38,610 bases of DNA from Gammaproteobacteria bacterium (GTDB lineage: Bacteria; Pseudomonadota; Gammaproteobacteria; GCA-001735895), in contig JAACFA010000010.1 in the NCBI GenBank assembly GCA_009937625.1, positions 1-38,610 on the forward strand. Reading direction: 5' to 3'. Below the pieces are notes generated by a model. It saw only the letters and a list, made by a program, of their open reading frames with translations, had not been told where the DNA came from and made no database searches. A program made the translations under genes and the position numbers. How positions within the stretch are numbered: the first letter of the stretch is position 1; every line of letters begins with the position of its first letter. Shown piece by piece: positions 19,931-34,625 of this stretch.

Positions 19931-20260
19931 TCGTTGATACCCGACCTGCAATGGGAAACGGGATTTTTCGGTGCAGATCAAATCAAGTCTAGGTCAATCG
20001 ACTGGCAATTCAAATTGGTAATCTTAATCAACTTTTTAGGGCTAAGCTCTGGTAAAAATGGGCATACGACCTTATAGTCTAAGGCCATCGCGATTTAATT
20101 GGTGGGCGGGTAGACTTCAAGCTGTTAACCAGTTCATGGTGATCGTATAAACTATTGAATAATATACGATTTGAATTCTGGTTTTATCCAGTCGCAAGTC
20201 CTGCAACAAACCACGACAAACAGCAGGACGGCTAATAATAATTTGAACTATGGAGACGGT
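19931..20260. other. Divergent control region between the HD-GYP gene and the kinase operon
   Basis: 330 bases without a gene. On the plus strand TGTTAA (20123-20128), 17 bases, TATAAA (20146-20151) is a possible kinase-operon promoter, followed by an AT-rich stretch (ATTGAATAATATACG) and a long leader of about 100 bases. On the minus strand TTGAAT and TAGACT with 16 bases between are a weak candidate for the HD-GYP gene. No terminator or RNA motif is recognised. Confidence 0.35.
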
Positions 20261-22891
20261 ATGAGAACCCGTTTTTGGAGTAGCGACTGGTTCGCAGGGC
20301 TGACGATTACCATCGTGGTGGTCCTGTTTTCGGGTGCGGCCCCGTTCCAGAGTCTCGAACGCAGCTTCTACGACTGGGGCGTCCGATCTACCGACCGTGT
20401 ACCTACCGAAAAAATTGCCGTGATCGCTATCGACGATGCCAGTATCGATAATATCGGGCGCTGGCCCTGGCCGCGAGATCTGCATGCCGAACTGATCGAC
20501 CGACTATCCGCAGGCGGCGCCAAGGTCATCGGTCAGACCGTTTTTTTCCTGGAGCCGCAGATAGATCCCGGAGCGCTGTATATTCGTGAACTAATCGAAT
20601 TTTTCTCCAACGCCAGCTTCGGCGATATCGCCGCAGATGTCGACGCGTTGGGGGCAATGCTGGAATTCGAAGGTAACAACAAGGCAGTGACCGAAATTCT
20701 CGAGTTTTACCTGCAATCCAGTATGAATACTCGTCTTAGTCAGGATATCGAAACCCTGAAATCGAGCCTGTTCGAGGCCGAGCAAGCACTCAACACCGAC
20801 GCCAAGCTTGCGGCCAGTATCGAAAATGCCAGCAACGTTGTGCTGGCGATGGTGTTCTACCTGGGTATTCCACGCGGCAAACCGGATGCAGAGCTACCCG
20901 GTTTCGTGCTCAATAATTCGATCAGCCAGGTGCGCGACCGGGTATCCGCACAGGCTAACGGGTTCTACCCGATCTCCACCGTTGCCGCACTGCCGCCAAT
21001 CGACGACGTCGGTCAATTTGCCTCGGCAATTGGGCATTTGAATACGCTGCCGGATCTTGATGGCGGTGTCCGCTCCGAACCTCTGGTATTACAGCATTAC
21101 GATCGCTACTACCCTTCCATATCGCTGCAGATAGCAGCCAAAAGCCTTAATCTCGACGTCAATGATATTCGGATAAATCTTGCCGAGAGCGTGGAACTCG
21201 GATCTTTGACCATCAAGACCGACTCGCAGCTGCGAATGAATACCTTTTTCTATTCCGGTAACCAGAGCTTCCCCGCCTTTCCGGTAGATTCCTACTACGA
21301 CGTGTTTACCGGCAAGATTCCGATCGAGAAATACAAGGATAAAATTGTCCTGATCGGGCCCACGGCAACCGGTGTCGGAACTCCCCAGGTAACGCCTATC
21401 GACCCATCGATGGCACCGGTGCTGACGCTGGCGCACTCGATTTCGAGCATACTCAACGAGGATTTCTTTATCGAGCCGGAGTGGGGTTTCTGGGCCCGCC
21501 TCGGCGTGTTCCTGCTGGTCGCACTTTACCTGATGCTGTTGATGCCGCGTCTCAAGGCGGGAGTCGCGTTTGTCGTCTCACTGGCGCTGGTGCTGGCGCT
21601 GGTAGTCACGCACTACTTGTTGATGACCACCAACACCATGTGGATCCAGGTGATGACGCCCGGAGCCCTGCTGGTCATTGGTTACCTGCTGATAACCACC
21701 AAGCGCTTCCTGGTGACCGAGCGCGGCAAGGCAAGATCGGACGAAGAATCAGCCGAGAGCAATCGTATGCTGGGTATCGCGTTTCAAACCCAGGGGCAGC
21801 TCGACATGGCATTCGAAAAGTTCCGCAAATGCAGCCCGGTGGATGAGCAGGTGCTGGAGGCAATGTACAACCTGGCGCTCGATTTCGAACGCAAGCGCCA
21901 GTTCAACAAGGCCACTTCGGTGTATCAGTACATGACGCAGCATGAGAAAGGCTTCCGTGACGTCGAAAACAGAATGGGCCGGGCACAAAAAATGGAAGAG
22001 ACCGTCATGCTGGGTGGCAGCGGCGCTCATGCCGGCGGCACCCTGATGCTGGACCAGGGTGGTGTCGAGAAACCGATGCTGGGTCGCTACGAAGTCGAAA
22101 AAGAACTCGGCAAGGGCTCGATGGGCATCGTGTATCTCGGAAAGGACCCAAAAATAAGCCGCGTGGTTGCGATCAAGACCCTGGCGCTGGCCCAGGAATT
22201 CGATGCTGACGAACTGGAAGAGGTCAAGCAGCGTTTTTTCCGTGAAGCCGAGACCGCGGGACGTCTCAATCATCCCAACATCGTCACTATCTACGACGCT
22301 GGCGAAGAACACGACCTGGCTTACATTGCGATGGAATTCCTGCAAGGGCATGACCTCGCGAGATACTGCAAACCTGACAACTTGTTGAAGATGCGCCTGG
22401 TGCTAAGTATCGTTGCGCGCGCCGCCGAGGGTCTCGATTACGCCCATCGGCAAAACGTTGTGCACCGCGATGTCAAGCCGGCGAATATCATGTACGAACC
22501 GGAATCCGATACCGTCAAGATCACCGATTTCGGCATCGCTCGCATCACCGATTCCAGTAAAACCAAAACCGGAACGGTACTGGGCACACCCTCGTACATG
22601 TCACCGGAGCAGTTAGCCGGAAAGAAAGTGGACGGCCGTTCCGACCTGTTCTCGCTGGGTGTCATGCTGTACCAGATGCTGTCGGGCTCGTTGCCGTTCA
22701 AGGCCGACTCCATGGCCAGCCTGATGTTTAAAATTACTAACGAGGAGGCGGCGGACGTCAGAACGCTTCGCCCTGAAGTGCCAGAGACCCTGTCGGCGGT
22801 TATCAACAAGGCCTTGACCAAGGACGTGGAACAGCGCTATCAAACCGGAATTGAATTTGCGAATGCGCTAAAAGCGTTTTTAAAGAGCTAG
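20261..22891 (+). CDS. CHASE2-domain transmembrane serine/threonine protein kinase (PknB-like)
   Basis: Predicted 876-residue membrane receptor kinase. The ATG at 20261 is chosen because GGAG stands 7 bases upstream. Order: TM1 (about 10-27), CHASE2 sensor outside the membrane (about 30-395, starting IAVIAIDDASIDNIGRWPW) with a ~95-residue insert (97-191), three further TMs (about 408-484), a TPR-like region (about 500-570), a linker with T581-VML and T594-LML, and a complete Hanks-type kinase domain (609-876). Kinase residues are intact: GKGSMG loop, VAIK (K639), HRDVKPAN (D737), DFG (D756), GTPSYMSPEQ. First gene of the operon with PP2C, FHA and cyclase genes. The ligand is unknown. Confidence 0.93.
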   Translation: MRTRFWSSDWFAGLTITIVVVLFSGAAPFQSLERSFYDWGVRSTDRVPTEKIAVIAIDDASIDNIGRWPWPRDLHAELIDRLSAGGAKVIGQTVFFLEPQIDPGALYIRELIEFFSNASFGDIAADVDALGAMLEFEGNNKAVTEILEFYLQSSMNTRLSQDIETLKSSLFEAEQALNTDAKLAASIENASNVVLAMVFYLGIPRGKPDAELPGFVLNNSISQVRDRVSAQANGFYPISTVAALPPIDDVGQFASAIGHLNTLPDLDGGVRSEPLVLQHYDRYYPSISLQIAAKSLNLDVNDIRINLAESVELGSLTIKTDSQLRMNTFFYSGNQSFPAFPVDSYYDVFTGKIPIEKYKDKIVLIGPTATGVGTPQVTPIDPSMAPVLTLAHSISSILNEDFFIEPEWGFWARLGVFLLVALYLMLLMPRLKAGVAFVVSLALVLALVVTHYLLMTTNTMWIQVMTPGALLVIGYLLITTKRFLVTERGKARSDEESAESNRMLGIAFQTQGQLDMAFEKFRKCSPVDEQVLEAMYNLALDFERKRQFNKATSVYQYMTQHEKGFRDVENRMGRAQKMEETVMLGGSGAHAGGTLMLDQGGVEKPMLGRYEVEKELGKGSMGIVYLGKDPKISRVVAIKTLALAQEFDADELEEVKQRFFREAETAGRLNHPNIVTIYDAGEEHDLAYIAMEFLQGHDLARYCKPDNLLKMRLVLSIVARAAEGLDYAHRQNVVHRDVKPANIMYEPESDTVKITDFGIARITDSSKTKTGTVLGTPSYMSPEQLAGKKVDGRSDLFSLGVMLYQMLSGSLPFKADSMASLMFKITNEEAADVRTLRPEVPETLSAVINKALTKDVEQRYQTGIEFANALKAFLKS

Positions 22892-22904
22892 TCCTGGTAG
22901 TCAT

Positions 22905-23729
22905 ATGAACTTGCAAAACAAGATAACGATAAAAGGCCTGACCGATACCGGCATGGTTCGCAGCAAGAACGAGGACGCCATAGGTTACGACAGCGCTCTG
23001 GGTCTCGTGGTGCTCGCGGATGGGATGGGCGGACATCGCGGAGGCGAAATAGCCAGCAGCATGACGGTCGACGCCATCATCGAGCGGATGCAGCAGCACT
23101 TGCCCGAAATCACTCCCGGAGAGGTAGACGAAGCTAGCGGCTTCTCGTTGGAATCGATTTGCATTCAGGATGCCGTTGTCGCCGCCAACGAACTTGTCTA
23201 CAAGACAGCCGAAGCTAACGCAGAACAAAAGGGTATGGGCACCACTATCGTGGTGTTGCAGTTTTACAACAATTCCTTTTCACTCGCCCACATTGGCGAC
23301 TCACGCTGCTATCGACTGCGTAACGGAAAGTTTGAGCAAATTACCAAGGATCACTCGCTGCTGCAGGAGCTCATTGATCGCGGATTTTATACGCCCGAAG
23401 AAGCTCGTAATTCGATGAATAAAAATCTCGTTACGCGTGCTTTGGGTATCGATCCGATCGTCATGCCAGACATTCAGGAAGATATAGTCCTGAAAAATGA
23501 TATATATCTGCTATGTTCAGACGGACTAACCGATCTGGTTGAAGATGAAGATATATACTACACTATTAAGGAATTTAGTGCTAATCTAGAAGAAGCTGCC
23601 AAGCAATTGATTACAAAGGCAAACCAGAATGGTGGAAAGGACAATATTTCGGTAATGCTGTGCCGAATTGACGAAGATTTTTCGACCAAGCAGGGCTGGT
23701 TCAAAAAGTTCGCCGCTTGGTTCGATTAA
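22905..23729 (+). CDS. PP2C-family serine/threonine protein phosphatase
   Basis: Predicted 274-residue soluble metal-dependent phosphatase that would reverse phosphorylation by the kinase encoded 13 bases upstream. Metal and phosphate residues of the PPM family are present: the Arg/Asp block GMVRSKNEDA (D24), LADGMGGHRGGE (D39-G40), GDSRCYR, KDHSLLQELIDRG, CSDGLTD (D206) and GGKDNISV (D246). No membrane segment is seen. Related stand-alone phosphatases (PstP, PppA, Stp types) are partners of bacterial Hanks kinases. Likely co-transcribed with the kinase. Confidence 0.94.
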   Translation: MNLQNKITIKGLTDTGMVRSKNEDAIGYDSALGLVVLADGMGGHRGGEIASSMTVDAIIERMQQHLPEITPGEVDEASGFSLESICIQDAVVAANELVYKTAEANAEQKGMGTTIVVLQFYNNSFSLAHIGDSRCYRLRNGKFEQITKDHSLLQELIDRGFYTPEEARNSMNKNLVTRALGIDPIVMPDIQEDIVLKNDIYLLCSDGLTDLVEDEDIYYTIKEFSANLEEAAKQLITKANQNGGKDNISVMLCRIDEDFSTKQGWFKKFAAWFD

Positions 23730-23773
23730 CGGAATACACCCAGTAGAAACTACTCTAGAGGCTGGATAATAAC

Positions 23774-24496
23774 ATGGTCGCAAAACTGATCACTACATCA
23801 AGCACGGGCGAAAAAACCGAGTACGAGTTGGTCAACGAAACAACTACGATTGGGCGCAAACCAGGCAATGACATACAAATCGATAATTTGTCCGTCAGTG
23901 GCAGACACGCGCAGGTCATTACCATTCTTGAAGATTCTTTCCTGGAAGACCTGGGTAGCACCAATGGCACCTACGTTAACGGCAAACTGGTCAAAAAGCA
24001 TGCCCTGGAAAACGGCGACAATATTACGCTTGGCAAGTATCAGATTACCTATCAAAACAATTCCGGCGGCGGCGAACAGGATTTCGAGCAAACCATGATC
24101 ATCCGCCCTGGCGAAGCGGGCATGCCCGAAGAAGCTGGCGGTAGAGAAATCGACAAGTCGGTACAGAAAATTTCTGCCGCTATCGCCTCCGAGGCAGCCA
24201 CGACTGCCGCCTCACCCATGGCGAACCGGGAAGCCTGCCTGCAATTACTGAGCGGGGCCAACGCCGGTAAGGAACTGGTACTAACCAAGGCACTGACCAC
24301 GATTGGTCAACCCGGGGTGCAGGTAGCCGCAATTACCCGCCGGCCTCAGGGCTTCTTTCTGATTCACGTCGATGGCGGCCCGAATAATAGCGTGCCTAAA
24401 GTCGGCGGCTCGCCGATCGGATCAAACGCGCACGAACTCAAAAGCCACGACATCATCGAAGTCGCTGGCGTAAAGATGGAATTCTACCTCAAGTAA
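23774..24496 (+). CDS. FHA domain protein with a second, degenerate FHA-like domain
   Basis: Predicted 240-residue cytoplasmic phosphothreonine reader. The N-terminal FHA domain (about 10-95) carries all the hallmark residues: IGRKPGNDIQI, LSVSGRHAQV and LGSTNGTYVNG. A linker has the motif EQTMII (T107) and an Ala-rich stretch. The C-terminal half (about 155-240) is FHA-like in pattern (LLSGANAGKELVL, TTIGQPG, GSPIGSNAHELKSHDIIEVAG) but has lost the GR and SxxH residues needed for phosphothreonine. It follows the phosphatase by 44 bases and precedes the cyclase by 43, so it probably acts as the adaptor of this kinase/phosphatase pair. Confidence 0.9.
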   Translation: MVAKLITTSSTGEKTEYELVNETTTIGRKPGNDIQIDNLSVSGRHAQVITILEDSFLEDLGSTNGTYVNGKLVKKHALENGDNITLGKYQITYQNNSGGGEQDFEQTMIIRPGEAGMPEEAGGREIDKSVQKISAAIASEAATTAASPMANREACLQLLSGANAGKELVLTKALTTIGQPGVQVAAITRRPQGFFLIHVDGGPNNSVPKVGGSPIGSNAHELKSHDIIEVAGVKMEFYLK

Positions 24497-24539
24497 CAAA
24501 TCTCAATACTGCTCGTCCGAACTCCACCCGGGAGCATAA

Positions 24540-26771
24540 ATGCAACTGCAGCGCATAGTCAGACTCGTACTTAGCGCCTTCATCCTGCTTGTGTTGCTGA
24601 TCGATACCTCGGGGCTTTACAAGTACCCGTTTATCAAGCAACTCGAGGACTGGACCTACGATGCCAGGCTCAATTTCACTCGCAGCGACACCATCGACGA
24701 GCGTATCGTCATTGTTGATATCGATGAGAACTCACTAGCCACGGTTGGCCGCTGGCCCTGGGGTCGTGACAAGCTGGCGACCATCGTCGACAACCTGTTC
24801 AATCTCTATGAAGCCAACGTCGTGGGCTTCGATATCGTTTTCGCGGAGAAAGACACAAGTTCGGGTCTGGAAATGTTTGAACAGCTGGCGCAGAATTCGC
24901 TCAAGAACAATGCACAGTATCAACAGGCGCTCGATGAAATTCGACCCAGCCTCAAACACGATGAAATCTTCGCTGACAGCCTGATAGGTAAAAATGTCGT
25001 TCTCGGGTATTACTTCAAGACGAAACTCCAGCAAGGTGAAACCGGCGTTACCGGTCTGCTGCCGCCGGCGTTAACCAGGATGGACATTCAGTGGAGCGAA
25101 CGCCTGCCCATCAACAACGCGCTAGGCTACGGCGGTAACCTCGAGATACTGCAATCCGCGGCCAGGTCAGGCGGTTACTTCGATAACCCTTTTGTCGACG
25201 CCGACGGCGTGTTTCGCCGCGTACCCCTGGTACAGTCCTACGAGGGCTATTTGTTTGCCTCGCTGGCGCTAGCCGTCACTCAGGCTTACCTCGATTCAGG
25301 AGGGGTCGAACTGGAAGTCGAAACCGAGGGTACGCGCGGGGACAAGGAATATTACGCACTCGAAACCATTAAACTCAAGGATCATCACATCCCGGTCGAC
25401 GCCAATGGCGCGGTGTTCGTGCCCTATCGCGGCCGACAGGGTAGCTTTCCGTATATCCCGGCCCACGAAGTGCTGAGCGGTAACGCCGATCCGCTGGCGC
25501 TGAAGGATAAAATAGTGCTGGTGGGCACCACGGCTCCGGGTCTGCTCGACCTGCGCTCGACACCGGTGCAAAACATTTATCCCGGGGTAGAGGTGCACGC
25601 CAATATTATTTCCGGCATTCTCGACGATCGAATTAAACACAAGGCGGCCTGGACAGTCGGTTACGAGTTTGTCCTACTGGTAATCATAGCTATCGCGATG
25701 GCCTTACTGCTGCCCCTGCTTTCTCCGCTACTCGCAGCCGTCGGGACGCTCGGACTGACAGGAATTGTGCTGGCGGGAACCTTTATCGCATGGTACTCCA
25801 ATCTAATACTGCCGTTAGCCAGTCCCTTGCTGCTGATCCTGATGATGTTCATCATGCACATGTCCTATGGTTTCTTCATCGAGTCGCGAGGCAAGCGCCA
25901 GCTAGCCCATCTGTTCGGCCATTACATTCCCCCGGAACTGGTCGACGAAATGAGCGAGTCGCCCGAGCAATATTCGCTCGAGGGTGAAAATCGCGAAATG
26001 ACCGTTTTGTTTTCCGACGTGCGCGGTTTTACCTCCATTTCGGAAGGAATGGACCCAAAACAGCTGACCCAGCTCATGAATGCGCTGCTAACCCCCATGA
26101 CAAGGGTTATCCATAAGAATCGCGGCACCATCGACAAGTACATGGGTGACGCCATAATGTCATTCTGGGGCGCGCCATTGGCCGATTCCGAGCACGCCAG
26201 GCACGCGCTTTACGCGGCGATGGAAATGATGGATGAACTCAAGATAATGCAGGAAGATTTCAAACAGCGCGGCTGGCCAGAGGTCGATATCGGCATCGGC
26301 ATAAACACCGGTGACATGAACGTCGGTAACATGGGTTCGGAATTTCGCATGGCCTACACGGTGCTGGGTGACGCGGTGAATCTCGGCTCGAGACTCGAGG
26401 GCCTGACCAAGAACTACGGGGTTAATATTATTGTCAGTGAAACCACCAAGAATGTGATTCCCGAGTTCGTATTTCGCGAGCTCGACCTGGTGCGGGTCAA
26501 GGGCAAGAATGAACCGGTAGCAATATTCGAACCGGTTGGTCACAAGAACGATCTGGATAAATCGATTACTTCGGAGCTTACCGCTTACAAGCAAGCATTA
26601 AGGTATTTTCGCGCCCAGTCGTGGGACAAGGCGGAACCCGATTTCTTTAACCTTAACCGCACCCATCCCGAGCGCCTGCTTTATCAGGTGTACCTGGATC
26701 GAATCGCGGTTTATCGCAAGGAGCCGCCAGGCGAAAACTGGGACGGCGTGTTTACCCACACCACCAAGTAA
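24540..26771 (+). CDS. CHASE2-domain class III adenylate cyclase
   Basis: Predicted 743-residue membrane receptor cyclase making cAMP. GGGAG precedes the ATG. TM1 (about 5-24), an extracytoplasmic CHASE2 sensor (about 40-350; IVIVDIDENSLATVGRWPW matches the kinase's start of the same domain), three TMs (about 372-450), then the cyclase homology domain (about 485-665). Metal aspartates D493 (LFSDVRGFTS) and D537 (DKYMGDAIM), adenine-selecting K533 and D611, and transition-state N614 and R618 (DAVNLGSRLEG) are all present, which predicts an active homodimeric adenylate rather than guanylate cyclase. The C-terminal ~75 residues look helical, perhaps TPR-like. Last gene of the kinase operon; converges on avtA with 15 bases between. 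Confidence 0.93.
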   Translation: MQLQRIVRLVLSAFILLVLLIDTSGLYKYPFIKQLEDWTYDARLNFTRSDTIDERIVIVDIDENSLATVGRWPWGRDKLATIVDNLFNLYEANVVGFDIVFAEKDTSSGLEMFEQLAQNSLKNNAQYQQALDEIRPSLKHDEIFADSLIGKNVVLGYYFKTKLQQGETGVTGLLPPALTRMDIQWSERLPINNALGYGGNLEILQSAARSGGYFDNPFVDADGVFRRVPLVQSYEGYLFASLALAVTQAYLDSGGVELEVETEGTRGDKEYYALETIKLKDHHIPVDANGAVFVPYRGRQGSFPYIPAHEVLSGNADPLALKDKIVLVGTTAPGLLDLRSTPVQNIYPGVEVHANIISGILDDRIKHKAAWTVGYEFVLLVIIAIAMALLLPLLSPLLAAVGTLGLTGIVLAGTFIAWYSNLILPLASPLLLILMMFIMHMSYGFFIESRGKRQLAHLFGHYIPPELVDEMSESPEQYSLEGENREMTVLFSDVRGFTSISEGMDPKQLTQLMNALLTPMTRVIHKNRGTIDKYMGDAIMSFWGAPLADSEHARHALYAAMEMMDELKIMQEDFKQRGWPEVDIGIGINTGDMNVGNMGSEFRMAYTVLGDAVNLGSRLEGLTKNYGVNIIVSETTKNVIPEFVFRELDLVRVKGKNEPVAIFEPVGHKNDLDKSITSELTAYKQALRYFRAQSWDKAEPDFFNLNRTHPERLLYQVYLDRIAVYRKEPPGENWDGVFTHTTK

Positions 26772-26786
26772 TCCGGGATTCGAAAT

Positions 26787-28025
26787 TTACCAGCAGGCGC
26801 GCAATTCACGCGCCAGTATTTCGATGCCCTTCGCCAACTCGTCCTCGGTCTGCACATAGTTCATTCGCACACAGCTTTCCGCGTGCTGCGTTGGCTGCGA
26901 CTGACCCGGGAAAAAATACTTTCCGGGAACTATCAGCAGGCCCTGTTGCTTTAGGCGTTGATACAATTCACTGCTGCTTACCGCAAGATTTTCGAACCAT
27001 AGCCACAAAAACATCGAACCTTCGGGTTTGTGGATATGCAGCCGCGGATCATCAATCGCTTGCCGCAGCAGCCTGACCGCCAACTCCGAGCGCTGTCGAT
27101 AAAACGGGCGTATTACCTCGTCACAAAGGCCGAGCAAGGCATCTTCGGCAATCAACTGACCGAGAATCTCTGCACCCAGCCCCGATGGCGCCAGGCTGGT
27201 TATCGCGGTCATGTTCGAAAAATACTTAATCACTTCCTCGTTGGCGATTACGATGCCGGTACGGGCTCCCGGCATTCCCAGCTTCGACAGGCTCATGCAC
27301 ACGATACAGTTGTCGTTCCAGAACGGCTTGGCCTCGCTGAAAATGATATCGGGGAACGGGGTACCATAAGCGCTATCGATTAGCAGCGGAACGTCGTGGC
27401 AGCGCGCAACCTTGTCGAGCTGCGCACACTCCTCGTCGGTAAGGACATTGCCGCTCGGGTTAGTTGGGCGTGAAACACAAATCAGTCCGGTCGTTGCGTC
27501 TACCTGCAGATTTTCGAAATCTACCAGGTACTTGAAAAACCCGTCTTCGAGATGCTGGATTTTAGCTTCCTGGCTAGTGATCAGACCGTCCTCGATACCG
27601 ACATCGCTATAACCGATATACTCGGGTACCAGCGGTATGAGCACCCGCTTCTGCAGCGAGCCCGCTTTGCCCGCGAACGAATTGAACAGGATAAAGAACG
27701 AACTCTGACTGCCGTGGGTCAGGGCTATATTGCGGCTAGTGATATTCCAGCCGTATTGCCGCCGAAAAAAATCGGCGAGCGTTTCGAGGAAGCCGGAGTT
27801 ACCTTGCGGGCCATCATAATTAGCCAGAGTTTCGATCAATCTGCCCGACTGCTGCAGTTTCACCAACACGTTCTCGAGTACCGCCCTGACCTCGGGAATG
27901 TCGGCGGGATTGCCGCCTCCCAGCATTATAACTTCGGGTTGTGCCAATCCTTCACTCAAATCGTCCATCAGGTGGGTTATGCCTGAGTATCCGCGAAAGC
28001 GTTCTCCAAAGTCAGAAAGGTTCAT
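26787..28025 (-). CDS. avtA: AvtA, valine-pyruvate aminotransferase
   Basis: PLP-dependent transaminase moving an amino group between valine or alanine and the matching keto acids. The start at 28025 (MNLSDFGERFRGYSGITHLMD) has AAGGGA upstream; a longer reading is unlikely. The 412-residue protein resembles E. coli AvtA over its length: IMLGGGNPADIPE, NYDGPQGNSGFLETLADFF, PLVPEYIGYSDVGIE, CVSRPTNPSGNVLTDEE, the PLP-lysine block SLSKLGMPGARTG and KPEGSMFLWLWFENL. It is divergent from the thioesterase; a 7-bp inverted repeat sits in its leader. Confidence 0.93.
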   Translation of the reverse strand: MNLSDFGERFRGYSGITHLMDDLSEGLAQPEVIMLGGGNPADIPEVRAVLENVLVKLQQSGRLIETLANYDGPQGNSGFLETLADFFRRQYGWNITSRNIALTHGSQSSFFILFNSFAGKAGSLQKRVLIPLVPEYIGYSDVGIEDGLITSQEAKIQHLEDGFFKYLVDFENLQVDATTGLICVSRPTNPSGNVLTDEECAQLDKVARCHDVPLLIDSAYGTPFPDIIFSEAKPFWNDNCIVCMSLSKLGMPGARTGIVIANEEVIKYFSNMTAITSLAPSGLGAEILGQLIAEDALLGLCDEVIRPFYRQRSELAVRLLRQAIDDPRLHIHKPEGSMFLWLWFENLAVSSSELYQRLKQQGLLIVPGKYFFPGQSQPTQHAESCVRMNYVQTEDELAKGIEILARELRACW

Positions 28026-28038
28026 CGTGTCCCTTAGC

Positions 28039-28058
28039 ATTGTAGTTGACGCTACAAT
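28039..28058 (-). promoter_or_regulatory. Inverted repeat ATTGTAG-N6-CTACAAT in the avtA leader
   Basis: A perfect 7-bp inverted repeat with a 6-base spacer ends 13 bases upstream of the avtA ATG, just before its Shine-Dalgarno sequence. It overlaps the downstream part of a weak promoter pair on the minus strand (TTGCAA 28080-28085, 17 bases, CGTAAT 28057-28062). It could be an operator for either divergent gene or an RNA hairpin next to the ribosome-binding site. Confidence 0.45.
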
Positions 28059-28170
28059 TACGGACAGCAACCAAAAAAATTGCAACTGTTTTTAGCGCCG
28101 AACTTGATCTGGGTTCTGGTTGACTCGTTAAATCAATCTGGCACCATTCGTTTCGGGAGGCGGAATTCGA

Positions 28171-28572
28171 ATGCAGTATTCTCACGAACTGGAGTTCAAA
28201 GTGCGCGACTACGAATGCGATATGCAAGGTGTCGTCAATAACGCCGTTTATCAGAATTACCTGGAACACGCGCGCCATGAGTTCCTGCAGTCTCGTGGAA
28301 TCAACTTTGCCGAAGTGACCTCGGCGGGTATTCACCTGGTGGTTGTTCGGGCAGAACTCGATTACAAAAAATCGCTGGCCAGCAATGATCGGTTCATTGT
28401 CCGCAGCCTGCTGCGTCCGGTATCGAGGATTCGCTTCGAGTTTCGGCAGGACATCTACCGCTTGCCAGATGATACCCTTATGCTCGCAGCGCGCGTCACC
28501 GGTACCTCGCTAAATGAATCAGGGCGCCCGTTTTTGCCCGAGGCATTGAAGCAGCTTTTTAGCAACGACTAG
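28171..28572 (+). CDS. Acyl-CoA thioesterase, 4HBT (hotdog fold) family
   Basis: Predicted 133-residue cytoplasmic thioesterase of the YbgC/FadM type. The signature is FKVRDYECDMQGVVNNAVYQNYLEHARHEFL cut here to its key parts: Asp in DYECD and the GVVNNAVYQNYLEHAR helix that hold the active site. GGGAGG lies about 11 bases before the ATG. The substrate cannot be told from sequence. It is divergent from avtA and 178 bases ahead of fabI; a lipid-metabolism link with fabI is possible. Confidence 0.9.
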   Translation: MQYSHELEFKVRDYECDMQGVVNNAVYQNYLEHARHEFLQSRGINFAEVTSAGIHLVVVRAELDYKKSLASNDRFIVRSLLRPVSRIRFEFRQDIYRLPDDTLMLAARVTGTSLNESGRPFLPEALKQLFSND

Positions 28573-28698
28573 CAACCGGCTCGGTGCGATGCTCGCTAAG
28601 CCTGCGCCTGTCGAAAGGCTAATAACAAACCAGTACGGGCCGGGCTTGATAGATCACTTTACGCTGCGGATAAAAAACGGTTGGAACAGGTTTTGTGA

Positions 28699-28727
28699 TT
28701 GCATGCGACGCTGGAGGCTGACAAAAT
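28699..28727 (+). promoter_or_regulatory. Candidate sigma-70 promoter for fabI
   Basis: TTGCAT (28699-28704), 17 bases, CAAAAT (28722-28727), with the ATG 23 bases further on behind GGGAG. The 126 bases before this pair hold no feature I can name. Confidence 0.4.
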
Positions 28728-28750
28728 AGATTCTATTTGCGGGAGCAAGC

Positions 28751-29536
28751 ATGGGTTTTCTAGCCGGTAAAAAAGCACTAATCGTTGGTATCGCCAGCAA
28801 TCGATCTATCGCTTACGGCATCGCGCAGGCGATGCATCGCGAGGGTGCTGAACTCGCCTTCAGCTACGCTAACGATAAATTAAAACCACGAGTAGAAAAA
28901 TTCGCCGCCGAGTTCGACTCCGATGTCGTGTTACCCTGCGACGTCACCAGTGATGAGGAAATCACCGCTTTGTTCACTCAACTGGGGGACCGCTGGGACA
29001 GGCTCGATGCCCTGGTACACTCGGTGGCTTTCGCACCGCGCGAGGCCCTGGCAGGAGACTACCTGGAAAACCTCGATCGCGAGGGCTTTCGCATCGCACA
29101 CGACATTAGTTCCTATAGCCTTGCCGCGATGGCCAAGGCTGCTCGACCCATGATGCAGAACACCAATGGCGCGATTATCACCATGACCTATCTCGGATCG
29201 GAAAGAGCGCTGCCGAACTACAACATCATGGGCGTTGCCAAAGCCAGCCTCGAAGCGAATGTGCGCTACCTGTCGGCAGCGCTAGGGCCGGAAGGTATCC
29301 GCGTCAATTCGATTTCGGCAGGGCCGATCAAGACCCTGGCCGCGGCTGGCATTGGAAATTTCAAAAAGATTCTCGATGAAGTTGCCAGTAACGCGCCATT
29401 AAGACGGAACGTGACCATCGAGGAAGTGGGTAACGCCGCGGCTTTTCTTTGTTCAGACCTCGCCGCGGGCATCACCGGCGAGAATATCTACGTCGACTCC
29501 GGCTACAATATCGTTAGTATGGGCGTGCTCGAATAG
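28751..29536 (+). CDS. fabI: FabI, NADH-dependent enoyl-ACP reductase
   Basis: FabI performs the last reduction of each cycle of type II fatty acid synthesis. The 261-residue SDR-family protein has the nucleotide motif [14 protein letters not shown], and the catalytic Tyr/Lys pair in [18 protein letters not shown] (Y147, Y157, K164; E. coli numbering is one less). The residue matching E. coli G93 in the triclosan-site loop is Ala93 (HSVAFAP). C-terminal [19 protein letters not shown] is typical. It converges on ppiD with 36 bases between, the same neighbourhood as in Pseudomonas. Confidence 0.97.
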
Positions 29537-29572
29537 CGACCCGGGAACATTCGCCGCGGGAGAGGCATTTAC

Positions 29573-31450
29573 CTAGAGGTCTTCTAGTGGCGTTCTAACG
29601 ACTTCTGCGCGGCTGGAAAGCATTTTCGTGGCAGACTGGTACTCGGAAGCGCTGAGGGCCTCTGCGAGGCGATCAAGCGCCTCCTGATCGACATCGCTAT
29701 CGTTTGACATAACCGCCGATAATTCCACAATCACATATTCACCGGTCGCTAGCGAAAGTCCTTCGTAAACGGCCCCCTGCTCCGGTCTGGGCAGTTTAAA
29801 CGCCAGATCGCGAATGGCGGTATCGATTTCCGCCTGCTGGCGCTGAACGAATCCGAGATCATCGATCGACGATGACCATTCCTGCGCCAGGTCATCCAGC
29901 GATTTCCCGGCTTCCAGCTCGGCCAGCGCGGCAGTACCGGTACTGCGGCCCAAGTCTTGCAGCTTTATTAGCGCCAGTTCATTCCTGACCTGTTCCCTGA
30001 CCTGCTCCAGGGGCTTCTGCTCGGCAGGTTTGAACTGGTTCAATCGCAGGAATACCACCCGCTCGTTACCCAGTTCAATGGCTTCGCTATTGAGACCCTG
30101 CTGCAGCACCTCAGGAGAGAAAGCGGCTTGACGAATTTTACTTTCGGCCCCGATCCCCTCGGCGGAGAAGCGGCCAAACCAGTCACTGGTCTGCAGCTTG
30201 AGACCGAATTGCTCGGCTGCAGGCAACAGGGAATCCGGCTGCTCGTAGGCTAGATTCGCCAGGTTTTCGACCAGGTCGTAGATCTGGCTTTCAGCCAGTT
30301 CCGCCCTGATTTCATCCTCGAGGCTGGCCTGCAAAGACTCGAAGGATTTGGTTTCACCCCCGCTGATGGAATGCAATTTTATCAGGTGCCAACCGAATCC
30401 GGTCTTGACCGGTTCGCTAAGTTGATCGACCTCCAGCGCAAACAGCGCAGCTTCGAATGTCTGAACCATGATGCCACGCTCGATCTCTCCGAGGTTACCG
30501 CCATCGCTGGCCGAGCCCGGGTCCTCGGAAAATTCACGCGCCATGTCTGCGAAACTTTCACCATTGACGATACGGTCGCGAATCTCGGTAATCCTGCTCA
30601 GGGCCTGGTCGCTGTCCTCGTCCCCGGCCTTTACAAGTATGTGGCTGGCTTCTCTGATTTCGGCGCTGGAGTAAGCATCGATATTGTCCTGGTAGCGCGC
30701 ATACACCTCATCTCGATCGACATCGATACCCTTTTTCACATCTTCCAGGGTTACTTCGATATAGTCGATTTTTACCTGCTCCGGGCTACTGTAGCGCGCA
30801 GCCTGGGCCTGGTAATGCTGCTCGATTTCGCTATCGTCGATCTGGATATCCGCGGCATTGGCGACGAATTTTAAAGTTCTGATCTTTCGAGTCTGGCTGC
30901 TCAGGCTATTGAATTTTTTACGGGTATAGGGGAGTACGAACGAAGTCGACGTAATACCGGTTTCGAACTGACCCATCGCACCATTGGTCCTGAGTTCCTG
31001 TTCGAATCCGAGCGGCGAGTACCCGAGAGAGCGCAACTGCGCCTCGTAAATTGCGGTATCGAACTGACCGTCTCGCTGAAACACATCCATGTCACGGATA
31101 ATCTGGTTTAACTCGGCGTCGCCGATACGATAACGCTGTTCCTGAATGTACTGGCGCAACGCAAGTTCATCGATCAATTGCCCGCGCACCTGCTCGCGCA
31201 GCATGGTCTCGTTGCCGAAAGATTCCGGGATGACGCCGCCGAAAAGTTGCGCCAGGCGCTGCCGGTAATTGGCGTAGGCCTGATCGAGGTCGCGTGCAGT
31301 TATCTCTTCGCCGTTGACGGTCGCGGCGGGCGGAATCTCACCACCTCCAAGGTACGAGTTAACCCCCCAGAGCGCGAATGGGATACTGATCAGAAAGATT
31401 ATGCCGTAGGCAATCCATCCCGTTACTTTATCTCGAATTGCTTGCAGCAT
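29573..31450 (-). CDS. ppiD: PpiD, periplasmic chaperone / peptidyl-prolyl isomerase anchored in the inner membrane
   Basis: PpiD helps folding of proteins leaving the Sec translocon. The 625-residue protein has a single N-terminal anchor (about 13-31, IAYGIIFLISIPFALWGV), a SurA/trigger-factor-like chaperone region starting ATVNGEEITARDLDQAY, and one parvulin domain (about 265-360: REASHILVKAG, DPGSASDGGNLGEI, GFGWHLIKLH). The last ~240 residues form a second chaperone-like region. The gene follows hupB and two tRNAs, the E. coli hupB-ppiD order with the tRNAs inserted. Confidence 0.94.
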   Translation of the reverse strand: MLQAIRDKVTGWIAYGIIFLISIPFALWGVNSYLGGGEIPPAATVNGEEITARDLDQAYANYRQRLAQLFGGVIPESFGNETMLREQVRGQLIDELALRQYIQEQRYRIGDAELNQIIRDMDVFQRDGQFDTAIYEAQLRSLGYSPLGFEQELRTNGAMGQFETGITSTSFVLPYTRKKFNSLSSQTRKIRTLKFVANAADIQIDDSEIEQHYQAQAARYSSPEQVKIDYIEVTLEDVKKGIDVDRDEVYARYQDNIDAYSSAEIREASHILVKAGDEDSDQALSRITEIRDRIVNGESFADMAREFSEDPGSASDGGNLGEIERGIMVQTFEAALFALEVDQLSEPVKTGFGWHLIKLHSISGGETKSFESLQASLEDEIRAELAESQIYDLVENLANLAYEQPDSLLPAAEQFGLKLQTSDWFGRFSAEGIGAESKIRQAAFSPEVLQQGLNSEAIELGNERVVFLRLNQFKPAEQKPLEQVREQVRNELALIKLQDLGRSTGTAALAELEAGKSLDDLAQEWSSSIDDLGFVQRQQAEIDTAIRDLAFKLPRPEQGAVYEGLSLATGEYVIVELSAVMSNDSDVDQEALDRLAEALSASEYQSATKMLSSRAEVVRTPLEDL

Positions 31451-31490
31451 TTATCTTGTCGTCACTTGTTACAGGTACCAACATGTCGAA

Positions 31491-31507
31491 GCGCTCGTAA
31501 CGAGCGC
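31491..31507 (-). other. Hairpin between tRNA-Asp and ppiD
   Basis: GCGCTCG, three bases, CGAGCGC forms a perfect 7-bp stem 9 bases after the tRNA-Asp 3' end. There is no following T-tract, so it is more likely a processing or attenuation structure than a full terminator. Confidence 0.4.
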
Positions 31508-31516
31508 ATTCAATGA

Positions 31517-31593
31517 TGGCGGAGTGGACGGGACTCGAACCCGCGACCCCCGGCGTGACAGGCCGGTATTCTAACCAACTGAACTACCACTCC
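31517..31593 (-). tRNA. tRNA-Asp (anticodon GTC)
   Basis: 77 bases on the minus strand including an encoded CCA. The acceptor GGAGTGG pairs with CCACTCC, the D-arm has GTTCAGTTGGTTAGAA, the anticodon loop is CTGTCAC (GTC), and the T-arm is GGGTTCGAGTCCC. It follows tRNA-Val by 8 bases in the same direction. Confidence 0.97.
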
Positions 31594-31601
31594 TGTATGG
31601 A

Positions 31602-31677
31602 TGGTGGGTGCTGACGGGATCGAACCGCCGACCCTCGCCTTGTAAGGGCGATGCTCTCCCAGCTGAGCTAAGCACCC
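31602..31677 (-). tRNA. tRNA-Val (anticodon TAC)
   Basis: 76 bases on the minus strand with encoded CCA. The acceptor GGGTGCT pairs with AGCACCC, the D-arm is GCTCAGCTGGGAGAGC, the anticodon loop is CTTACAA (TAC) and the T-arm is GGCGGTTCGATCCCGTC. It begins 21 bases after the hupB stop, so both tRNAs are probably cut from a hupB-tRNA-ppiD transcript. Confidence 0.97.
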
Positions 31678-31698
31678 GGTCTAGCCAAAAAAGGGGCG

Positions 31699-31971
31699 CT
31701 AGTTTACTGCGTCTTTCAGAGCTTTGCCAGCCTTAAATGCCGGGACTTTGGAAGCTTTAATCTGAATGGTTTCTCCGGTGCGAGGATTGCGTCCAGCGCG
31801 CGCTTCACGCTGACGCACCAGGAACGTTCCAAAGCCAACGATGGTGACTTGATCACCGGATTTAAGCGCCTGGGTTACTGACGCGATTACGCCATCAACA
31901 GCACGAGAAGCATCAGCTTTACTTAAATCTGCCGCGCCTGCAACAGCATCAATCAATTCAGATTTATTCAT
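31699..31971 (-). CDS. hupB: HupB, DNA-binding protein HU beta
   Basis: HU is an abundant dimeric nucleoid protein that bends DNA. The start at 31971 ([18 protein letters not shown]) gives the standard 90 residues; an upstream in-frame start at 32031 would add 20 residues and is rejected. The DNA-binding arm signature is [22 protein letters not shown], followed by [22 protein letters not shown]. The gene follows lon and has its own strong promoter in the gap. A hairpin (GCCC, three bases, GGGC, at 32008-32018) lies in its leader about 37 bases before the start. Confidence 0.97.
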
Positions 31972-32108
31972 TAGTTTTTTCCATTTGGTTAAGTTGATAT
32001 ATTTATTGCCCGAAGGGCGGACAGGCAACACAAGTCTAAATTTTGCTTGTTATCGTTGCTTAATAGCGAGCCTTTTTATCTCGCGTCATCCCCCGTCCAG
32101 AGCGTCGA

Positions 32109-32137
32109 ATTAAACCAACAGCAGCGGTTACGGTCAA
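32109..32137 (-). promoter_or_regulatory. Sigma-70 promoter for hupB
   Basis: On the minus strand TTGACC (32132-32137), 17 bases, TTTAAT (32109-32114), each matching five of six consensus positions. The leader to the hupB ATG would be about 130 bases. Just upstream, AGGC/GCCT followed by TTTTA (about 32140-32156) may be a weak lon terminator. Confidence 0.65.
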
Positions 32138-32186
32138 CCATAAAAGGCCAAAAAGCCTAAATAAATCGTATTATTTACGCTAACTG

Positions 32187-34625
32187 CTAGTGCGCCCTGA
32201 CTCTGGACGACTTTTTATCTTTCTCTTTCGTCTTCGGTGTTGCAGTGCCTGCCTCGGTTTTTTTCGGCAAAGGCGTCGGCTGATGCGCCAGCGCGACTTC
32301 GAGCACCTGATCGATCCAGCGCACCGGTATTATTTCAAGCTTGGCTTTAATATTATCCGGGATTTCCGCCAGGTCTTTTTCGTTTTCCTCGGGGATCAAA
32401 ACCGTGGTAATACCACCGCGGTGAGCTGCCAGCAGTTTCTCCTTGAGCCCGCCTATCGGCAACACTTCGCCGCGCAGAGTTATCTCACCGGTCATGGCAA
32501 CCTCGGCCTTCACCGGTATCTCGGTTAGCGCCGAAACCAGTGCGGTACACATGCCGACACCAGCACTGGGACCATCCTTCGGCGTAGCGCCTTCAGGAAC
32601 GTGAATGTGGATATCCTTGTTCTCGTTAAAATCCGGATTTACCCCGAGAATTTCGGCGCGGCTACGCACTACCGTCATCGCCGCCTGTATCGACTCTTTC
32701 ATGACGTCGCCCAACTGCCCGGTCTGGACAAACTTGCCCTTGCCATCGACGACAGCCGATTCGATAGTCAGCAATTCTCCGCCGACCTCGGTCCATGCGA
32801 GACCGGTCACCTGGCCGATCTGATCCTTTTCATCCGCCGAACCGAAGCGGAAACGCTTCACGCCGAGATACTTCTCGATGTTTTTCGGGCTTATGGTCAG
32901 CTTGCTCGTGCTCGGCTCCAGCAACATCATCTTGACCGCCTTGCGGCATATCTTGGAAATCTCGCGCTCGAGATTACGCACCCCGGCCTCGCGCGTGTAG
33001 CGCTGAATTATCTCGAGCACCGCATTTTGCTTGATGTCGATCTCGTCCAGTTTGAGGCCGTTCTCCTTGATCTGCTTGGGGATCAGGTACTTCATTGCGA
33101 TATTCAGCTTCTCGTCCTCGGTGTAACCCGGAATACGGATTACCTCCATCCGGTCGAGTAACGGCCCGGGGATATTCATACTGTTTGAGGTTGCAACAAA
33201 CATGGTATCGGACAGATCGAATTCGACCTCCATGTAGTGGTCGGCAAACGTATTGTTCTGTTCCGGATCGAGCACCTCGAGCAAGGCCGAGGCCGGATCG
33301 CCACGAAAATCCATCGCCATCTTGTCGATCTCGTCGAGCAGAAACAGCGGGTTCCTGACCTTTACCTTGGCGAGGTTCTGGATGATTTTACCCGGCATGG
33401 AGCCAATATAAGTACGTCGATGGCCTCTGATCTCGGACTCGTCACGCACGCCACCGAGCGACATGCGAGAAAACTTGCGATTGGTGGCACGCGCGATCGA
33501 ACGACCGATCGAGGTCTTGCCCACGCCGGGCGGCCCCACCAGGCATAATATAGGGCCTTTCAGTTTGCGCACACGCTGCTGTACCGCGAGATACTCGAGG
33601 ATACGCTCCTTAACCTTATCGAGCCCGTAATGATCTTCTTCCAGCACTTTCTCGGCCTGCGCCAGGTCGCGTCTGATTTTTGATCGTTTCTTCCAGGGAA
33701 CGCTGACCAGCCAGTCGATGTAATTGCGCACCACGGTGGCCTCGGCCGACATGGGCGACATCATTTTCAGCTTGTTGAGTTCCGAGTCGGCTTTTTCGCG
33801 GGCCTCCTTGGGCATACCGGACTCTTCGATTTTCTTTTGCAGATCCTCGACCTCGTTGGGCGCGTCGTCCATGTCACCGAGTTCTTTCTGAATCGCCTTC
33901 ATTTGCTCGTTCAGATAGTACTCGCGCTGGCTTTTTTCCATCTGCTGCTTGACTCGGCCACGGATCCGCTTCTCGATCTGCATCAGGTCGATTTCGCCTT
34001 CGATCTTGCTCATGATGTGTTCGATGCGCTCGCGCGGATCCTGGATTTCCAGGATTTCCTGCTTTTCGTCCAGTTTCAACGACATGTGCGCGGCAATGGT
34101 GTCAGCGAGACGGCTGGGATCATCGATTCCAGACAAAGACGTCAAAATTTCGGGAGGCACTTTCTTATTCAGCTTGACGTACTGATCGAACAGATTGAGC
34201 ACCGAGCGCAGCAGCACTTCGGCCTCGCGATCATCGACCAGGCCGGATTTTTCAAGCACCTTGATCGCGGCGGAATAATACTCGTTGGTTTCCAGCAGAC
34301 TATCGACGACAACGCGATCGCCGCCCTCTACCAACACCTTTATGGTGCCATCGGGAAGTTTTAGCATTTGCAGAATAGTCGACAGGGTGCCTATCTGGTA
34401 CAAATCTTCCTGCCCCGGATCATCCACTTCTGCATTTTTTTGCGCTAGCAGCAGAATTTTCTTGTTATCGGCCATCGCCGCTTCGAGCGCCAGGATCGAT
34501 TTCTCCCGACCGACGAAAAGCGGGATTACCATGTGGGGATAGACGACGACATCGCGTAACGGCAGCACCGGGATCAATTGTCTGTCCGGCTGCTCCGCGA
34601 GCAGGTTACTTTGATAATCTGACAT
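32187..34625 (-). CDS. lon: Lon, ATP-dependent serine protease
   Basis: Lon degrades misfolded and short-lived regulatory proteins in the cytoplasm. The 812-residue protein has the N-terminal substrate domain ([24 protein letters not shown] trimmed to its key part [14 protein letters not shown]), a coiled-coil, the AAA+ module ([22 protein letters not shown]) and the protease domain with the Ser-Lys dyad S687 ([10 protein letters not shown]) and K730 ([11 protein letters not shown]), matching E. coli S679/K722. A C-terminal tail of about 28 charged residues ([12 protein letters not shown]) extends beyond E. coli Lon. GAGAGG precedes the ATG. Transcribed after clpX, also from its own heat-shock-type promoter. 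Confidence 0.98.

Follow-up and report, generated by a model that had tools for sequence, protein, structure and literature searches.

The window analysed here, a 38,610-nt stretch of a gammaproteobacterial genome (assembly GCA_009937625.1, contig JAACFA010000010.1), contains four genes that follow one another on one strand in the order CHASE2–Ser/Thr kinase, PP2C phosphatase, FHA protein, and CHASE2–class III cyclase (Table 1). Open reading frames at exactly the coordinates given in a first-pass annotation, together with Pfam matches, confirm its description of four co-directional neighbours, and the family matches support its view that a writer, an eraser, and a reader of phosphothreonine form a real set with a second-messenger receptor. 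The kinase gene starts with an ATG at 20261, preceded by a GGAG Shine-Dalgarno sequence, and the short intergenic gaps of 13, 44, and 43 nt make co-transcription of the four genes likely. Upstream are two genes that the first-pass annotation overlooked and that, judged from the gene maps described below, belong to the same island, encoding a GAF-HD-GYP protein and a CNB-CNB-rhodanese protein. In the latter, the second CNB domain carries FGEEAL...RNA and the rhodanese loop reads CDTGRR. The downstream region from 26787 to 34625 is occupied by housekeeping genes (aminotransferase, thioesterase, FabI, PpiD, HU, and Lon), the order of which is kept in same-genus relatives.

Table 1. Features of the island, with positions in the window.
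Feature	Length	Coordinates	Strand	Basis or remark
CNB-CNB-rhodanese protein	351 aa	17248..18303	+	Candidate cAMP reader
GAF-HD-GYP protein	550 aa	18329..19981	-	HDCGK and HHEKMDGSGYP intact; divergent neighbour of the kinase
CTGGTAA-N16-TTATAGT element	30 nt	20049..20078	+	Putative kinase-operon promoter
CHASE2 receptor Ser/Thr kinase	876 aa	20261..22891	+	Pfam; solved relatives
Juxta-catalytic motifs E-E-T581-V-M-L and G-G-T594-L-M-L		22001..22058	+	Predicted autophosphorylation and FHA docking sites
PP2C phosphatase, Stp1/IreP/PstP type	274 aa	22905..23729	+	Pfam, NCBIfam, metal Asp
FHA protein	240 aa	23774..24496	+	Pfam, AlphaFold2, Foldseek
Linker motif D-F-E-Q-T107-M-I-I-R		24083..24109	+	Predicted to be phosphorylated by the kinase and bound by FHA
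CHASE2 class III(b) adenylyl cyclase	743 aa	24540..26771	+	Pfam, residue alignment

Most same-genus relatives retain the candidate promoter ahead of the kinase, with drifting flanks. It was rejected as a regulon marker, as it has a single exact copy genome-wide and yields 11 matches against 10 in a reversed control. A CRP-like site near the operon was also rejected (6 matches versus 11.9 expected, all outside the kinase promoter region), and a generic scan for sigma-70 promoters and terminators gave no excess over shuffles.

The kinase consists of a CHASE2 domain (residues ~17–423; Pfam, 3e-50), a TPR-like stretch recognized by eye (~490–560), and a PknB-like kinase domain (606–870; Pfam Pkinase, 3.4e-58). 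Its best solved relatives are PknB, StkP, and PknA, and the Lys of VAIK and the Asp residues of HRD and DFG are conserved in 55/55 sequences, making it PknB-type by catalytic residues and similarity. It misses the cut-off of the PASTA kinase equivalog (Stk1/PknB; 308.7 bits versus 450) and has CHASE2 in place of PASTA repeats. The phosphatase matches PP2C in Pfam (5.3e-15) and passes the NCBIfam cut-off for Stp1/IreP (6.4e-75; 251.6 bits, cut-off 230); PstP is its closest known relative, and its metal-binding Asp residues are conserved in all 79 sequences. The cyclase matches CHASE2 (5e-59) and Guanylate_cyc (9.8e-23), and its metal Asp, purine Lys/Thr, and transition-state Asn/Arg residues are conserved in 37/37 sequences. 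Since K533 and T607 align with the purine-binding residues of the adenylyl cyclases CyaB and CyaC, whereas the guanylyl cyclase Cya2 has Glu and Gly, the enzyme is predicted to be adenylyl, and this pair with the two metal Asp residues points to class IIIb. The alignments of kinase, PP2C, and cyclase thus bear out the earlier statement that no catalytic residue is missing. A second CHASE2 kinase paralogue, ~43% identical, occurs in same-genus genomes (L023–L026, L051, and L052), has often lost the equivalent of T581 (NAVVLG, DVLVLG), and in L051 and L052 has no triad genes recognized nearby.

The FHA protein contains a canonical FHA domain (residues 1–97; Pfam, 1.2e-21), a disordered linker (98–150), and a second beta domain (151–240). 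An AlphaFold2 model shows two beta domains at a pLDDT of 75.7, with the linker below 50. Foldseek and sequence comparison place the first domain closest to GarA/OdhI with the phosphothreonine pocket kept, and 21 diverse relatives all share the pocket residues G27, R28, S42, H45, and N64. The second domain lacks these residues; from our reading of its sequence pattern, with no separate fold match, it appears to resemble FHA. The protein scores 67 against the OdhI model (cut-off 200), and its short N-terminus has no ETTS motif of the GarA/OdhI type. Instead, a conserved threonine motif is located C-terminal of the FHA domain. The near-invariant consensus around T107 is [DE]-F-E-K/Q-T-M-I-I, and T107 is aligned in 63/63 loci of 35 families, though the flanks differ in the divergent L244/L245, L250, and L257, where the alignment could slide. 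At 80% redundancy T107 is present in 23 of 24 sequences, and linker columns outside 103–112 reach at most 0.58. The FHA protein of the Olavius algarvensis Gamma 3 symbiont is 96% identical to that of the window.

Similar motifs are found in the kinase, where E-E-T581-V-M-L-G and G-T594-L-M-L stand just N-terminal of the catalytic domain. Some FHA domains accept the pattern pT-x-x-I/L, and T581 and T594 of the kinase as well as T107 of the FHA protein all fit it. T581 is kept in 47/55 CHASE2 kinase sequences (18/19 at 80% redundancy) and T594 in 43/55; their loss from the remaining 8 and 12 sequences, respectively, suggests that docking may be partly redundant or family-dependent. A pattern scan matched positions 107 and 114 of the FHA protein and T581 of the kinase, with no match in PP2C, CNB-rhodanese, cAMP phosphodiesterase (PDE), or GAF-PilB proteins. 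A threonine trigger in the cyclase was rejected, as its single match is the catalytic-core strand MTVLFSD and it has no linker motif. In one locus, L084, the CNB-rhodanese, HD-GYP, and kinase genes are missing between MltD and PP2C-FHA-CYC (CYC, cyclase), and the 3.4 Mb searched of this genome gave no Pkinase match, compared with 3 and 14 in two other genomes searched alike. The linker in L084 reads NSKQGLATKL, so that the threonine motif is gone, and the phosphothreonine pocket is retained. Loss of the linker motif accompanies loss of the kinase in this one case, a single MAG-type record.

The first-pass annotation would have been refuted had no relative kept the genes together; the neighbourhood is kept in many. 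Same-genus loci maintain the order MltD–CNB-rhodanese–HD-GYP (minus strand)–kinase–PP2C–FHA–cyclase where contigs cover the region. Across the class, 127 of 370 sampled genomes (96 of 272 genera) encode a member of the FHA family, and 114 of the 370 encode cyclase relatives (E<=1e-80). Linkage was counted in genomes with an FHA match of at least 200 bits and a cyclase match of at least 660 bits, the lists being matched by hand. The two genes are within 10 kb of each other in 27 of the 40 genomes having both, spread over 14 families. The window's own family is one of these, and leaving it out gives 23/36 genomes in 13 families. Because a 20-kb neighbourhood is less than 1% of a genome, fewer than one linked genome is expected by chance. 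Judged from these gene maps, the neighbourhood is ancient.

In a survey of 63 loci from 35 families, chosen by FHA score, the FHA gene is accompanied by PP2C in 34 families, by a CHASE2 kinase in 25, by a partial or non-CHASE2 kinase ORF in 5, and by the cyclase in 14. The cyclase may be co-directional with FHA, convergent, or separated from it by one or more genes, depending on the family. Hence the proposed set does stay together, but the conserved unit is the triad with a looser island around it and no fixed four-gene operon; the mostly convergent or distant position of the cyclase argues for a cAMP branch less tightly held than the triad. An analysis of domain distances likewise found kinase, PP2C, and FHA tight and the cyclase looser, with cyclase-domain distances correlating poorly with those of PP2C and FHA (0.23 and 0.16).

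In 8/35 families a GAF-HD-GYP gene, and likewise in 8/35 a CNB-rhodanese gene, is located no more than 10 kb from FHA. Betaproteobacterial loci add genes for the PDE and a GAF-PilB ATPase. In the Gallionellaceae-type loci L104 and L119 the order is kinase–PP2C–FHA–cyclase–PDE–CNB/rhodanese–GAF-PilB–GAF-HD-GYP, followed in L119 by a pilin, and other betaproteobacterial loci are shorter versions of this cluster. The PDE-like gene matches Lactamase_B_2 and PDEase_II, the class II cAMP phosphodiesterases. Thus, one betaproteobacterial cluster would hold the predicted maker, reader, and breaker of cAMP. The window's genome has one PDE homologue (47%), which is unlinked; its candidate GAF-PilB homologue was rejected, as only an unlinked PilB without GAF was found.

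Taken together, the locus is probably an inherited island in which two membrane inputs are coupled; a PknB/GarA-like phosphothreonine switch would stand next to a cAMP/c-di-GMP circuit. A periplasmic event would act through the kinase CHASE2 domain to activate the PknB-like kinase, which may then autophosphorylate T581 and T594, located after the TPR-like stretch and before the kinase domain. The canonical FHA domain would dock on these pT-x-x-I/L sites and position the linker T107 for phosphorylation. Once formed, pT107 may be bound by an FHA domain, either within one molecule, as in GarA/OdhI, or in trans; such binding would switch the partner held by the FHA protein, probably via its degenerate second domain. 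PP2C, from its family, is expected to remove the phosphate marks. On the other branch, the CHASE2 class IIIb cyclase is predicted from its residues to make cAMP. The CNB-rhodanese protein would serve as cAMP reader, the class-II-like phosphodiesterase would remove the messenger, and the GAF-HD-GYP protein may contribute c-di-GMP turnover. The triad mechanism is moderately supported, whereas cross-talk from kinase to cyclase has no direct support, as the cyclase carries no matching linker motif. It is also possible, though more tentatively proposed, that the triad is an undescribed and widespread proteobacterial switch, in which an FHA protein bearing a C-terminal FEKTMII trigger, as well as another FHA-like domain that does not bind phosphothreonine, is paired obligately with a CHASE2 kinase and PP2C and wired to a full cAMP circuit and HD-GYP. 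In betaproteobacteria its output might be an ATPase of the type IV pilus/type II secretion type; this output on pili or secretion is suggested by the betaproteobacterial loci only.

The coupling of the two branches is where other readings apply. The kinase triad and the adenylyl cyclase may be independent systems that share the locus by inheritance, with phosphorylation and cAMP uncoupled. This is a serious possibility, if not the expected one, given the varying orientation and distance of the cyclase, the 13/40 genomes in which FHA and cyclase are unlinked, the lack of a kinase-type threonine motif in the cyclase, and the two CHASE2 domains, which are unrelated beyond family level. However, linkage persists in 14 families through convergent, co-directional, and gene-separated arrangements, the cAMP reader and PDE genes gather at the locus too, and the CHASE2 domains show weak co-divergence. 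The first-pass annotation instead proposed that kinase and cyclase answer one ligand as mixed CHASE2 dimers. Both receptors carry CHASE2, their genes are linked, and their CHASE2 distances have a partial correlation of 0.36 (P 0.012, from residual permutation and not strictly valid), which falls to 0.20 with all controls. Yet the two domains are only 24% identical and form separate kinase-type and cyclase-type groups in a midpoint-rooted tree, which rules out local duplication as their origin, and the conserved unit often occurs without the cyclase. One signal received by mixed complexes is thus unproven and appears unlikely. Only one further CHASE2 protein was found in this genome (L142:1-1907, contig C264). 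It is unrelated, has a cyclase-like domain without the usual FSD motif (FSTCLATDMQGF) and adjoins a FecR-like/TPR protein.

Proteobacterial sets of Hanks kinase, PP2C, and FHA are best known from type VI secretion. That the island is the threonine-phosphorylation pathway of such a system is highly improbable and largely refuted. The triad is present, as in PpkA/PppA/Fha, where the three are co-encoded, and its linker threonine recalls Thr-362 of Fha1; in Pseudomonas aeruginosa one threonine of that system's FHA protein serves as a substrate (PMC5995506). However, a search of the genome, which is 93% complete, gave no match to the sheath gene PF05591, and against the TagH model the FHA protein reaches 45 bits (cut-off 120); membership of the set in a type VI system was rejected on these grounds. 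Moreover, no Tss gene occurs in the annotated parts of the loci.

The preferred reading, an island with a phosphothreonine switch beside a cyclic-nucleotide circuit, draws its closest parallel from PknB-GarA/OdhI and PstP of Actinobacteria, which share a PknB-type kinase, a PstP-type PP2C, and a GarA-like FHA domain. In GarA the regulatory threonine lies outside the FHA fold (PMC12321487), as does the predicted one of the island protein. The systems differ in that the ETTS of GarA is N-terminal to the FHA domain, while in the island protein the motif comes after that domain and precedes a second one; PknB has PASTA repeats where the island kinase has CHASE2; the island triad adjoins a cyclase; and GarA is described as unique to Actinobacteria. 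The island cyclase shares its catalytic fold and purine-binding Lys and Thr with the class IIIb enzymes CyaC of Spirulina and CyaB of P. aeruginosa, from which it differs by its CHASE2 input. Likened by description, the CHASE2 cyclases CyaD1, CyaD2, and CyaK of Sinorhizobium meliloti act with NsrA; a plant protein is sensed by way of an outer-membrane barrel, and their cAMP acts in symbiosis (PMC13001267). Their cAMP reader is the CRP-type Clr, and no kinase triad is described with them. Among papers available without subscription, none was found on a CHASE2 kinase/PP2C/FHA/cyclase cluster. Ordinary parts are combined here in a conserved and apparently undescribed assembly. Judged from the spread of the FHA family, this kind of kinase/PP2C/FHA set, here without type VI genes and beside cAMP and c-di-GMP genes, occurs widely. 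T107, T581, T594, and R28 are concrete residues to mutate, and relatives in Gallionellaceae or Sulfuricella that can be cultured open phosphothreonine/cyclic-nucleotide coupling to a direct test.

Other genes recur at the surveyed loci. In many families MutS is a near neighbour of PP2C-FHA or of the kinase (L089, L091, L093, L107, L118, and L204–L207), and an HtpG-like Hsp90 accompanies GAF-HD-GYP in L049 and L093. A 3-kb contig titled Klebsiella pneumoniae (L090, CAMCBY010000518.1) carries PP2C-FHA and a convergent cyclase ~50% identical to that of the window, and is probably a mis-binned environmental sequence. In L221, L229, and L240, a gene of ~900–1000 aa between FHA and cyclase has a start resembling a HAMP-type membrane sensor, so that the island of some families may include a two-component sensor.
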